Source of the DNA: Devosia ginsengisoli | Lineage (GTDB): Bacteria > Pseudomonadota > Alphaproteobacteria > Rhizobiales > Devosiaceae | NCBI RefSeq assembly: GCF_007859655.1 | Contig: NZ_CP042304.1 | Coordinates: 3,350,501 to 3,414,500, forward strand | Direction: 5' to 3' | DNA length: 64,000 nt | In this document: positions 5,648 through 41,653 of the stretch, in pieces | How the letters are laid out: each line of letters begins with the position of its first letter | Numbering within the stretch: the stretch's first letter is position 1 | Program-made: the position numbers and the translations under genes | Notes under the pieces: model-generated | Told to the model about the DNA's origin: nothing | What the model saw: the letters and a program-made list of their open reading frames with translations, nothing else | Databases searched by the model: none

Positions 5648-5661
5648 GATTCACGTGAAAC
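5648..5661 (+). other. parS-like motif copy 2 (GATTCACGTGAAAC)
   Basis: Exact copy of the recurring 14-mer, in the gap between the convergent gpmA and AraC-MGMT genes, 4 bp beyond the stop codon of the latter. Confidence 0.5.
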
Positions 5662-17176: not shown

Positions 17177-17190
17177 GATTCACGTGAAAC
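17177..17190 (+). other. parS-like motif copy 3 (GATTCACGTGAAAC)
   Basis: Exact copy. With its flanks it reads TGATTCACGTGAAACT, 14 of 16 matches to the parS consensus TGTTTCACGTGAAACA. It ends immediately before the stop codon of the 198-residue membrane-anchored protein. Confidence 0.5.
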
Positions 17191-23683: not shown

Positions 23684-23708
23684 GAAAAATCCCCGCTCGC
23701 GCGGGGAT
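23684..23708 (-). terminator. Rho-independent terminator of grpE
   Basis: On the minus strand ATCCCCGC, a GCGA tetraloop and GCGGGGAT form a perfect 8-bp stem followed by TTTTCG. Its 5' arm overlaps parS-like copy 4 by 3 bases. Confidence 0.85.
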
Positions 23709-23719
23709 TCACGTGAAAC
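23706..23719 (+). other. parS-like motif copy 4 (GATTCACGTGAAAC)
   Basis: Exact copy between the grpE stop and its terminator hairpin, in the gap between convergent pncA and grpE. Confidence 0.5.
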
Positions 23720-30887: not shown

Positions 30888-31775
30888 ATGACCGACCCCA
30901 CGCAAGGCTATTTCATCGCCGGCTCCGCCTTCACCGCGCCCCCGCTTTCGCCCGGCCTCTATGTCGTCGCCACCCCGATCGGCAACCTGCGCGACATCAC
31001 CATCCGCGCCCTCGAAACCCTGGCCGCCGCCTCGGTAATTCTTTGTGAAGACACAAGAATGTCGGCCCGCCTGCTCGATCACTATGGCATCAAGGCCCGC
31101 CGCGTGGCCCTGCACGAACACAATGAACGCGCCAAGGCCGACGACATCGTCGCCCGCGTCGCGGCCGGCCAGGCCATAGCCCTCATCTCCGACGCCGGCA
31201 CCCCCCTGCTGTCAGATCCCGGCTTCCCCCTGATTCGCGCCATGGCCGAAGCGAACCAGCCGGTCTTCCCCATTCCCGGCGCCTCGGCGCTTCTCTCGGC
31301 TTTGGTCGTCGCGGGCCTGCCCACCGACGCCTTTGCCTTTCACGGCTTCCTGCCGCCCAAGGCGGGCGCCCGCGCCAATGCCTTGAAGGCGCTGAGCGAT
31401 TCACGTGAAACCATGGTCTTCTACGAAAGCCCCCGCCGTCTCGACGATACGCTGGCCGCCATGGCCGAACTCTGGGGCAACCGGCAGGCCGCCGTGGCTT
31501 TGGAGCTGACCAAGCGCTTCGAGCGCGTCCATCGCGGCACCTTGCCCGAACTCGCCGCCACCTTCGCCGGAGCCGAAACCAAGGGCGAAGCGGTCATCGT
31601 CGTGGCCGGCGCCGATGCCCCCGCCGCGCCCGACGCGGCCGACTGGCAGGCGGCGCTGACTGCGGCGATGGAGAACCAGCCTCTGCGCGCGGCAGTCGAC
31701 GAAGTGACCAAAAATTTCGGACTCAAGCGCAAGGAGGTCTATGATGCCGCCCTCGCCCTCAAAGCCGAAAAGTAA
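30888..31775 (+). CDS. rsmI: RsmI, 16S rRNA (cytidine1402-2'-O)-methyltransferase
   Basis: 295 residues from ATG 30888 (MTDPTQGYFIAG). LYVVATPIGNLRDITIRALE and CEDTRMSARLLDHYGI are the RsmI signatures; ISDAGTPLLSDPGF and FPIPGASALLSALV form the SAM and RNA sites. The yraN gene overlaps its 3' end by 35 bp in another frame. A parS-like motif lies inside it at 31398-31411. Confidence 0.96.
   Translation: MTDPTQGYFIAGSAFTAPPLSPGLYVVATPIGNLRDITIRALETLAAASVILCEDTRMSARLLDHYGIKARRVALHEHNERAKADDIVARVAAGQAIALISDAGTPLLSDPGFPLIRAMAEANQPVFPIPGASALLSALVVAGLPTDAFAFHGFLPPKAGARANALKALSDSRETMVFYESPRRLDDTLAAMAELWGNRQAAVALELTKRFERVHRGTLPELAATFAGAETKGEAVIVVAGADAPAAPDAADWQAALTAAMENQPLRAAVDEVTKNFGLKRKEVYDAALALKAEK
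31398..31411 (+). other. parS-like motif copy 5 (GATTCACGTGAAAC)
   Basis: Exact copy, inside the rsmI coding region (codons for DSRET). Its presence inside a conserved gene suggests selection on DNA or simple repeated codon choice; the sequence alone does not separate these. Confidence 0.45.
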
Positions 31776-36506: not shown

Positions 36507-36618
36507 CGGGCCAGAACTCTACGCATGACGAAACTGAGCCTTTGATTCAACATGGCCCGGTTAACGCCGGATTAGGTTTACCAGTGTGGCAAGCGGCGTG
36601 GTTAACAGGCCATAATTC

Positions 36619-36633
36619 GTTCGCTTTACGTTC
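36619..36633. promoter_or_regulatory. LexA (SOS) box upstream of comM
   Basis: GTTC-GCTTTAC-GTTC is an exact match to the alphaproteobacterial LexA consensus GTTC-N7-GTTC. It lies 55 bp before the comM ATG. ComM has been placed in alphaproteobacterial SOS regulons, which makes the site plausible. Confidence 0.6.
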
Positions 36634-36688
36634 TTGTTCTCCGCCATTCGCTTTGCTAAGCTCGCCCGAGGGCTTGGGGCATTGGGCG

Positions 36689-38212
36689 ATGGTCACCCGC
36701 GTAGCGACAGTGGCGTTTCAGGGCATCGAGGCGGTGCCGGTCGATGTGCAGGTGCAGATCACGCCCGGCTTCCCGAAATTCATCCTGGTCGGCCTGCCCG
36801 ACAAGGCGGTCAATGAATCGGGCGAGCGCGTCCGTGCTGCTTTGGTCGCCTCGGGCCTCGGCCTGCCGCCCAAGCGCATCACCGTCAATCTGGCGCCGGC
36901 CGATCTCCCCAAGGAGGGCAGCCATTACGACCTGCCCATCGCGCTGGGCGTCATGGCCGCCATCGGCGCCATTCCGCAGGATGCGCTCGATGGCTATCTG
37001 GCACTGGGCGAACTGGGGCTCGACGGGCGCCTGGCCCATGTCGGCGGCATATTGCCGGCCGCCATCGCCGCACAGGCGCGCGACCTCGGCCTGATCTGCG
37101 CCGAACCCTCGGGCGCCGAAGCCGCCTGGGCCGGCGACGGGCTCGATATCGTCGCCGCCGAAAGCTTGCTGGCGATTGCCAATCACCTGACCGGCCACCA
37201 GCTCGCTGCCCGGCCCGTGCCCAGCAAATACCTGCCGCAGGGCGGCCTGCCTGATCTTGCAGACGTGCGCGGTCAGCAGGTGGCGCGCCGGGCGCTGGAA
37301 GTGGCGGCGGCCGGAGGCCACAATATGCTGATGGTCGGCCCACCCGGCGCGGGTAAATCCATGCTGGCGGCGCGCCTGCCCTCCATCCTGCCGCCGCTCG
37401 AACCGCGCGAGCTGCTCGATATTTCGATGATCCAGTCCATTGCCGGCGAATTGGCGGGCGGCGCCATTTCCGATCGCCGACCTTTTCGCGCGCCACACCA
37501 TTCCGCCTCCATGGCGGCTTTGGTCGGCGGTGGCCTGCGGGTGCGGCCGGGCGAAGTCAGCCTGGCCCACAATGGCGTATTGTTCCTCGACGAACTGCCC
37601 GAATTCGCCCCCAGCGTGCTCGACAGCCTGCGGCAACCGCTGGAATCCGGCGAAACCGTCATCGCCCGCGCCAATGCGCGGGTCAGCTATCCCAGCCGCG
37701 TTCAGCTCATCGCCGCGATGAATCCTTGCAAATGCGGCATGGCTGGCACGCCCGGCCATACCTGCCGGCGCGGCAAGGCCTGTGCTGACGATTATCAGTC
37801 CCGCGTCTCCGGCCCCTTCCTCGACCGCATCGATATCCGCATCGACGTGCCGGCGGTTACCGCCGCCGACATGATCGCGCCATCGGCGGTGGCTGAAAGT
37901 TCGGCTGCGGTGGCCGAGCGGGTCGCCCGGGCCCGCGCATATCAGCGTCAGCGTTTTGCCGAACACGGCGCTCCTGACGTCTTCACCAATGCTGCGGCCA
38001 GCGCCACGCTGATCGAAAAAGTGGTCAATCCCGACAAGGAAAGCCAGGCTTTGCTGCTACAGGCCGCCGAGCGCTTTAACCTCTCGGCCCGCGCCTATCA
38101 CCGCGTGCTCAAGGTCGCCCGCACCCTGGCCGACCTGGCCGGCGCGGAACGTGTAGCCCGTCCTCATATCGCCGAAGCCCTGAGCTATCGGCTCAATTTC
38201 GGCACGACCTAG
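36689..38212 (+). CDS. comM: ComM/YifB-family Mg-chelatase-like AAA ATPase
   Basis: 507 residues from ATG 36689 (MVTRVATVAFQGIEAVPVDV). An N-terminal Lon-like S5 domain is followed by the P-loop MVGPPGAGKSMLAARLP at about residue 215, Walker B VLFLDELPEF, a cysteine cluster NPCKCGMAGTPGHTCRRG and the C-terminal lid. ComM is a helicase that helps integrate incoming DNA in natural transformation. An SOS box lies just upstream. Confidence 0.95.
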   Translation: MVTRVATVAFQGIEAVPVDVQVQITPGFPKFILVGLPDKAVNESGERVRAALVASGLGLPPKRITVNLAPADLPKEGSHYDLPIALGVMAAIGAIPQDALDGYLALGELGLDGRLAHVGGILPAAIAAQARDLGLICAEPSGAEAAWAGDGLDIVAAESLLAIANHLTGHQLAARPVPSKYLPQGGLPDLADVRGQQVARRALEVAAAGGHNMLMVGPPGAGKSMLAARLPSILPPLEPRELLDISMIQSIAGELAGGAISDRRPFRAPHHSASMAALVGGGLRVRPGEVSLAHNGVLFLDELPEFAPSVLDSLRQPLESGETVIARANARVSYPSRVQLIAAMNPCKCGMAGTPGHTCRRGKACADDYQSRVSGPFLDRIDIRIDVPAVTAADMIAPSAVAESSAAVAERVARARAYQRQRFAEHGAPDVFTNAAASATLIEKVVNPDKESQALLLQAAERFNLSARAYHRVLKVARTLADLAGAERVARPHIAEALSYRLNFGTT

Positions 38213-38222
38213 CCCGGTGCCC

Positions 38223-38243
38223 TGTGCATAAGCCTGTGGATAA
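38223..38243 (-). other. Two perfect DnaA boxes in tandem
   Basis: TGTGCATAA (38223-38231) and TGTGGATAA (38235-38243) are both the reverse complement of TTATNCACA, in the same orientation and 12 bp apart start to start. They lie in the 49-bp gap between convergent comM and cfa, 2 bp from a parS-like motif. Confidence 0.7.
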
Positions 38244-38245
38244 GT

Positions 38246-38259
38246 GTTTCACGTGAATC
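38246..38259 (-). other. parS-like motif copy 6 (inverted, GTTTCACGTGAATC on +)
   Basis: Reverse complement of the recurring 14-mer; TGTTTCACGTGAATCC matches 14 of 16 bases of parS. It adjoins the two DnaA boxes. Confidence 0.55.
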
Positions 38260-38261
38260 CG

Positions 38262-39380
38262 TCAGCGGATGCTCTGATAGCCGCCCGCTACGCCGCTGGG
38301 CGATAGCACCACCTGCCACAGGCTGATATGGCGGGCGCGGAACAGCGCGGCGAAGGTGCTGAGATAGTAGCGCCACATGCGCTGGAACCGCGCGTCGTAT
38401 TTCTCGCCCTGCAGGCCGGGCCAGGCGGCGTCGAACCGGTCGCGCCACGCCATCAGCGTGCGGTCATAATCGGCGCCGAAATTGTGCCAGTCCTCCATCA
38501 CGAACAAGCCCTCGATGGCTTTGCCGATCTGGGCGATGGAAGGCAGCATGCCATTGGGGAAAATATACTTTTCGCTCCACGGGTCGCCATGCGTGGTGGA
38601 AGTGTGCCCGCCAATGCTGTGCAGCAGGAAAAGTCCGTCCGGCTTGAGCAGGCTGGCGGCCTTCTCGAAATAGGCGCGGTAATTCTTGTAGCCGACATGC
38701 TCGAACATGCCGATCGAGATGATGCGGTCGAACTGTCCGTCCAGCGCCTGATAGTCGAGCAACCGCGTCTCGACCGGCAGGTCTTTGGTCCGCTCATTGG
38801 CCAGAGCCGCCTGCTCCTTGCTGACGGTGACGCCCAGTCCCGACACGCCATAGCGTTCGGCGGCGAATTGCAAAAAGCCGCCCCAGCCCGAGCCGATATC
38901 GAGAATGCGCATGCCGGGCGCCAGGCCGACCTTGCGGCAGATCAGGTCCAGCTTGGCCTCCTGCGCCGCGTCGAGATCCTTGGCATCCTTCCAATAGCCG
39001 CAGGAATAGATCATCCGCCGGTCGAGCATGGCGGCATAGAGATCGTTGCCGATATCGTAATGCTTCTCGCCCACCTCGGTTACATGCAGGCGCTGCAGGT
39101 TGAGCAGGCGCCCCTTGACCACGCTCCACATGACGGCGAGATCCTTGGGAAAAGCGTCCTGCACATTGGCGCTGATCAGGCGGAACAGGAACTGGTCGAG
39201 CGCCTCGGCGTCCCACCAGCCATCCATGTAGCTCTCGCCCAGCCCCAGCGTGCCATCGCGCAGCAGGCGCGCCCACAGGCGATCGTCATGGATCTGCGGG
39301 TCCCATGGATCGGTGCCGTTGAGGGTGACACCGATATTGTTCAACTGGCTGGTGACGAAACGCTTGGCGGATGCGGACAT
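38262..39380 (-). CDS. cfa: Cfa, cyclopropane-fatty-acyl-phospholipid synthase
   Basis: 372 residues from ATG 39380. Methylates unsaturated acyl chains of membrane phospholipids with SAM. AEVGEKHYDIGND-type sequence (VTEVGEKHYDIGNDLY), the SAM motif RILDIGSGWGGFLQFAAERY and the bicarbonate/active-site region SIGMFEHVGYKNYRAYF are present. The N-terminus is shorter than in E. coli but normal for this group. Monocistronic by layout. Confidence 0.95.
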   Translation of the reverse strand: MSASAKRFVTSQLNNIGVTLNGTDPWDPQIHDDRLWARLLRDGTLGLGESYMDGWWDAEALDQFLFRLISANVQDAFPKDLAVMWSVVKGRLLNLQRLHVTEVGEKHYDIGNDLYAAMLDRRMIYSCGYWKDAKDLDAAQEAKLDLICRKVGLAPGMRILDIGSGWGGFLQFAAERYGVSGLGVTVSKEQAALANERTKDLPVETRLLDYQALDGQFDRIISIGMFEHVGYKNYRAYFEKAASLLKPDGLFLLHSIGGHTSTTHGDPWSEKYIFPNGMLPSIAQIGKAIEGLFVMEDWHNFGADYDRTLMAWRDRFDAAWPGLQGEKYDARFQRMWRYYLSTFAALFRARHISLWQVVLSPSGVAGGYQSIR

Positions 39381-39517
39381 GGCGGCAGCATGATTTGATC
39401 GCAATACGAGACAGGTTACCTCCATCGTCGTTTGACGATCAACCACTTATTTCGCGCGATCAGGACCCGTTAACGAAGGCGGCATATTGGTCATGCTGAC
39501 ATGCCGGCAGGATAGTG

Positions 39518-41639: not shown

Positions 41640-41653
41640 GATTCACGTGGAAC
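41640..41653 (+). other. parS-like motif copy 7 (GATTCACGTGGAAC)
   Basis: One mismatch to the recurring 14-mer (A to G in the right arm). It lies 57 bp upstream of the aceA start codon, so any protein bound here could affect aceA transcription. Confidence 0.4.

Follow-up and report, generated by a model that had tools for sequence, protein, structure and literature searches.

A tandem DnaA-box pair beside one origin-region parS site as a candidate DnaA-ParB composite site in Devosia

A pair of DnaA boxes abutting a parS-type site

The short gap between comM and cfa in Devosia ginsengisoli raises the question of why two DnaA-box sequences should stand directly beside a parS-type site at a place that is not the replication origin. 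This gap occupies positions 38213..38261 (49 bp) of the 64-kb stretch of DNA that we analysed, referred to here as the window, which spans 3,350,501-3,414,500 of a single 4,480,314-bp contig. Its neighbour on the oriC side is comM, which encodes a YifB/ComM family AAA ATPase (36542..38212, plus strand; TIGR00368, 513 bits, cut-off 362), and its other neighbour is cfa, which encodes a cyclopropane fatty acyl phospholipid synthase (38262..39446, minus strand; NF008686, 571 bits, cut-off 400). The two genes converge, with the comM stop codon ending at 38212 and the minus-strand cfa stop codon starting at 38262.

The original prediction placed two boxes and a parS-like site in this gap, and that description proved exact. 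Box 1 (TTATGCACA, 38223..38231), which is distal to parS, and box 2 (TTATCCACA, 38235..38243), which is proximal to it, both lie on the minus strand and are both exact copies of the DnaA-box 9-mer TTATNCACA; they point in the same direction with a start-to-start distance of 12 bp, leaving 3 bp between them. A spacer of 2 bp (38244-38245) separates box 2 from the parS-type site GTTTCACGTGAATC (38246..38259, plus strand), a 14-bp palindrome that differs from GTTTCACGTGAAAC by one mismatch, belongs to the GWTTCACGTGAAWC class and carries GAATC, an instance of the GANTC motif, in its distal half. Boxes and parS together make up a unit of 37 bp that in this genome could be removed without touching any gene.

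Exact boxes are scarce in this genome. The two described here are the only copies of TTATNCACA in the 64-kb window, where 0.28 are expected and where two or more were found in 3 of 100 shuffles. Chromosome-wide there are 18 copies compared to 33 for the reversed control, and the box is therefore not a common sequence here. The comM-cfa pair is also the only one in the genome with boxes within 20 bp of one another, a spacing for which about 0.0014 chance pairs are expected if 18 sites are placed at random, and only one of the 11 exact parS sites, that of the module, has a DnaA box within 60 bp when up to one mismatch is allowed.

The parS cluster and its distance to oriC

All 11 exact GWTTCACGTGAAWC sites of the 4,480,314-bp chromosome fall within 3,331,121-3,388,759 (58 kb), and the reversed control pattern occurs nowhere on the chromosome. 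This cluster includes parB (TIGR00180, over the cut-off) and hemE (TIGR01464) together with, as judged by motifs, a ParA-type P-loop frame and a gidA-type frame. Because every exact site on the chromosome lies within these 58 kb around parAB and oriC, the parS of the module is credible as a centromere site. Exact sites at 5648..5661 (GATTCACGTGAAAC), 17177..17190, 23706..23719 and 31398..31411, all on the plus strand, have no DnaA box within 60 bp. The module parS is the outermost exact site on its side of oriC in this genome; two relatives (G011 and G012) each have another exact site beyond the module. A near-parS site with one mismatch (GATTCACGTGGAAC, 41640..41653, plus strand) lies 3.4 kb beyond the module, away from oriC, at the 5' end of an isocitrate lyase frame, and similar sites, which were not counted, lie downstream of the module in many relatives. 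Exact parS sites number 737 in 75 Devosia genomes (median 10) and 295 in 61 genomes of other genera of the family (median 5), such that Devosia has about twice as many.

The hemE-maf gap, which we take to be the location of oriC as in Caulobacter, contains two TTAA-N7-TTAA sites, presumably CtrA-like, and imperfect DnaA boxes in this genome. The corresponding gaps of four relatives hold one to three TTAA-N7-TTAA sites along with boxes, the sites being present in all five genomes looked at, and on account of this recurrence the hemE-maf gap was taken as oriC. The oriC boxes are imperfect in the five genomes, with a single exact box, in G011. The original prediction had proposed that the distance to oriC be computed from GC skew, which, both locally and in sampled form, was too irregular for this purpose; a distance could be obtained by way of the hemE-maf gap, whose middle lies 48.6 kb from the module. 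Worked out by hand from coordinates, the same distance is 40.4, 50.7, 47.5 and 49.7 kb in G011, G012, G059 and G024, respectively. We rejected the module as a second origin: it has only two boxes, its gap has no TTAA-N7-TTAA site, and the conserved oriC with boxes and CtrA-type sites lies elsewhere, 48.6 kb off in this genome.

Two further features of this region and of its initiator gene were recorded. GANTC, a CcrM-type motif, is scarce (1.12 per kb versus 3.31 expected over the 464 kb scanned), and exactly one half-site is present in 9 of the 11 exact parS sites, with two half-sites in none; the GANTC-bearing half faces oriC in seven of these nine, the exceptions being the hemE-side site and the module parS. 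Extracts of one study mention GANTCs at the Caulobacter parS locus (PMC5172544). The dnaA gene (G000, ~3,512,530-3,514,185) lies outside the window, about 173 kb from oriC, and is in two frames with domain IV in another frame, perhaps owing to a sequencing indel.

Conservation of the unit within Devosia

Across 136 genomes of the family, the strict pattern TGTGNATAA occurs within 30 bp of GWTTCACGTGAAWC in 33, and this number rises to 45 when Y and R variants are included (TGTGNAYAA within 30 bp of parS). All 45 belong to one genus of 75 genomes, taken to be Devosia on the strength of Cfa similarity, since the closest named relatives of Cfa come from Devosia. No pairing was found among the 136 genomes with reversed-pattern controls, with the opposite box direction near parS or in other genera of the family. 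Leaving this genome aside, the other 44 have 45 such places, and all but one of these fall inside the stretch downstream of comM. The remaining one, a second pair in G010 on contig C143, was rejected as a separate locus: its sides are 98% and 100% identical to those of the pair on contig C202, and it therefore represents a single locus that recurs at the end of a different contig. When the class was sampled evenly and searched in this box direction only, 3 of 387 genomes had a match, one of them this genome; in the other two the spacers measure 15 and 29 bp, and they were not accepted as the same unit. Among the open-access papers retrieved, no title or abstract opening reported a box-parS unit in Devosia.

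We compared the stretch downstream of comM in 72 Devosia regions, from this genome and 71 others (three of the 75 genomes were left out for want of a usable comM end), with the corresponding stretch from 9 of the 61 other-genus genomes. Of the 72 Devosia regions, 65 have GTTYCACGTGAAWC no more than 2.4 kb from the end of comM; it is missing there from the other seven, one of which is only 713 bp long. The nine other-genus regions have no GTTYCACGTGAAWC in that orientation; one of them (G001) has GATTCACGTGAAAC 1.7 kb on, without boxes. A lack of box conservation in related species had been named beforehand as a finding that would count against the original prediction, but boxes and spacing are conserved: box 2, as TGTGNAYAA at -11..-3 from parS, matches exactly in 40 of the 65 regions and, if one mismatch is allowed, in 44; for box 1, at the same offset as here, the corresponding counts are 22 and 28. 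The background among 6,890 flanking 9-mers is 0 exact and 1 near match. These counts are dependent events since the genomes are related. Neither box is at its standard place in 21 of the 65 regions. In three of these (G020, G034 and G083) a box lies 1-2 bp off that place, and 18 of the 65 parS-bearing regions have no recognisable box, indicating that boxes are dispensable in some lineages. Information content per column is 0.32-1.20 bits in box 2, 0.30-0.60 in box 1 and at most 0.42 in the flanks, with parS columns near 2 bits by construction. Variation within the boxes consists of N at position 5 and alternation between TTATCCACA and TTGTCCACA, positions at which DnaA tolerates variation, a pattern that fits the predicted DnaA boxes.

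The unit keeps its shape as its neighbours change. On account of intervening genes, its distance from comM ranges from ~20 to ~1,740 bp, and among 24 of 80 named loci that were fetched with cfa, the unit lies within the fetched flank in eight. The modules of G013 and G036 (loci L169 and L192) have a different arrangement, in which two opposite parS sites 23 bp apart stand beside a single box. In six Devosia genomes comM itself is interrupted by other DNA of ~3 to 75 kb, in several cases near codons 250-268, and there appears to be an integration hotspot beside the parS cluster.

Conservation was also assessed in pairs chosen irrespective of boxes. Fifty-eight of the 65 regions, seven being left out because no 930-bp comM stretch had been fetched, were arranged in 29 nearest pairs that have no genome in common, although they are not strictly independent on the tree. 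Within pairs, box 2 has an identity of 0.70 and box 1 one of 0.52, compared to 0.35 in the flanks. Box 2 exceeded its flanks in 26 of 29 pairs (Wilcoxon p 2e-5) and box 1 did so in 20 of 29 (p 0.014), such that both are conserved beyond their flanks, box 1 moderately so. An earlier version of this test, in which box 2 won in 22 of 22 pairs, was discarded for selection bias, its 44 regions having been picked for box 2, and some of its comM tails were misaligned. On a quick comM tree of 74 rows (65 Devosia and 9 others), in which 29 of 71 inner branches are open, each of the two main branches includes lineages with boxes, and one cluster of lineages is without them. Presence versus absence of the boxes takes at least eight changes on this tree, and boxes have therefore been lost, or gained, several times.

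A centromere site that DnaA may influence, and its rivals

Given the position of its parS within the oriC cluster, 48.6 kb from the origin, and the conservation of the unit, the proposal of a DnaA/ParB-type module outside the origin is supported at the level of sequence. We consider it somewhat better than an even chance that the unit is a composite site through which DnaA could influence ParB at one origin-region centromere. The main rival is titration, in which high-affinity boxes close to oriC, copied early after initiation, would soak up DnaA and the neighbouring parS would be there by chance. The scarcity of exact boxes (18 in 4.48 Mb), the weaker boxes at oriC and the location of the module 40-51 kb from oriC in five genomes speak for it, and E. 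coli datA and the DnaA-box clusters of B. subtilis likewise place boxes outside oriC. Those, however, are larger arrays that are not tied to a parS, and a datA-type cluster is defined by many boxes in one place, whereas the module has only two and often one. Titration further leaves unexplained why the distance to parS is nearly fixed at 2 bp and the side constant, and in this genus the boxes are found at this parS locus only. We therefore regard it as unlikely, if still the strongest competitor.

It is improbable that some other DNA-binding protein reads the TGTGSATAA repeats beside parS. DnaA is assigned by motif only, and direct repeats are bound by many proteins, but the repeats match the DnaA consensus and vary at positions where DnaA is tolerant, and imperfect copies of this core motif are present in oriC. 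Similarly, we think it quite improbable that the boxes are a functionless relic that arose once near parS and is now decaying: boxless lineages, a decayed-looking copy in G062 and frequent degradation of box 1 are in its favour, yet box 2 retains an identity of 0.70 against 0.35 in the flanks among pairs not picked for boxes, and boxes persist in both main branches of the tree. Very improbable, finally, is a DnaA-controlled promoter or operator, or a terminator, of a neighbouring gene. The original prediction held that the convergent genes leave no promoter role, and this stands for the present genome and for several other relatives in which genes also converge on the module (16 genomes inspected), but not for the genus at large: in at least ten relatives, all with boxes (shifted in G034), the gene on the right of the module is of cold-shock type and points away from it. 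The unit is nevertheless kept though neighbours differ. Between 38000 and 38500 no promoter-like site was found, nor was there a terminator-like one at the module itself, the single terminator-like match (38377-38395) lying inside cfa, and a transcriptional role in this genome, where the genes converge, is unlikely.

How could DnaA act at such a composite site? The DnaA of this genome has the DHTT motif, which belongs to the box-binding domain of the protein. DnaA would bind head-to-tail on the tandem boxes, the proximal one 2 bp from parS, and, given the footprint sizes of DnaA and ParB, the two footprints should touch or overlap. Bound DnaA might then alter the action of ParB at the module parS by direct contact, by competition where the two footprints overlap, or by acting as a barrier to ParB clamps that slide towards oriC; the boxes are always on the same side of parS, which in this genome is the oriC-proximal side. 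A single parS of about ten would in this way read the level or state of DnaA, and this reading could link the initiation of replication with either the onset of segregation or the extent of the ParB domain. The imperfect oriC boxes in five genomes suggest that DnaA might occupy the module before it occupies oriC. A more specific version, an initiator-gated centromere in which DnaA, by occlusion or contact, controls both ParB loading and the direction of clamp sliding, so that one parS in ten serves as a DnaA sensor setting the ParB domain in step with initiation, is a tentative proposal that we hold to be less likely than its negation.

DnaA binding at the parS/centromere of Caulobacter crescentus was reportedly described by Mera, Kalogeraki and Shapiro in 2014. 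According to extracts of published accounts, DnaA in Caulobacter binds the parS region and promotes parS movement (PMC6399470; PMC9945499), and parS moves at DnaA levels too low for replication (PMC6399470). ParB, as described in part of another study, loads at parS and slides off as a clamp, and its spreading on one side can be attenuated by a protein bound to the DNA (PMC7053999). That spreading can be attenuated and that Caulobacter DnaA binds parS and promotes its movement are among the grounds on which we favour a DnaA-responsive parS. Like Caulobacter, Devosia has DnaA-box sequences in an origin-proximal parS region, where in Caulobacter the replication initiator helps parS-ParB to move and where in Devosia the module consists of predicted boxes. 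In a comparison made without the Caulobacter box layout, Devosia differs in having tandem near-consensus boxes 2 bp from one parS, ~48 kb from oriC.

Two systems on other replicons show related arrangements in the portions of the literature consulted. At rctA/parS2 of Vibrio cholerae chromosome II, a centromere and initiator-binding sites likewise adjoin, but the initiator there is RctB rather than DnaA, and the locus is described as seeming to titrate it (PMC6399470). The cisII/cisMP elements of Deinococcus radiodurans bind both DnaA and ParB, a likeness in which the module takes part as a prediction from its sequence; they differ in being repeat arrays with ori-like function that lie on secondary replicons, upstream of parAB, and the poor affinity of DnaA for two repeats of these elements counts against a DnaA-ParB reading (PMC7671480).

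How replication initiation is tied to segregation is an open question, and the evidence for DnaA at a centromere that we found in the open-access literature comes from Caulobacter. Devosia offers a unit of 37 bp with nearly fixed geometry that is present in many genomes of the genus and absent from sister lineages. With a unit so small and so unevenly distributed, such coupling can be tested both through point mutants and by setting natural strains side by side. One of about ten parS sites in these bacteria may tie the copying of the chromosome to the separation of its copies.
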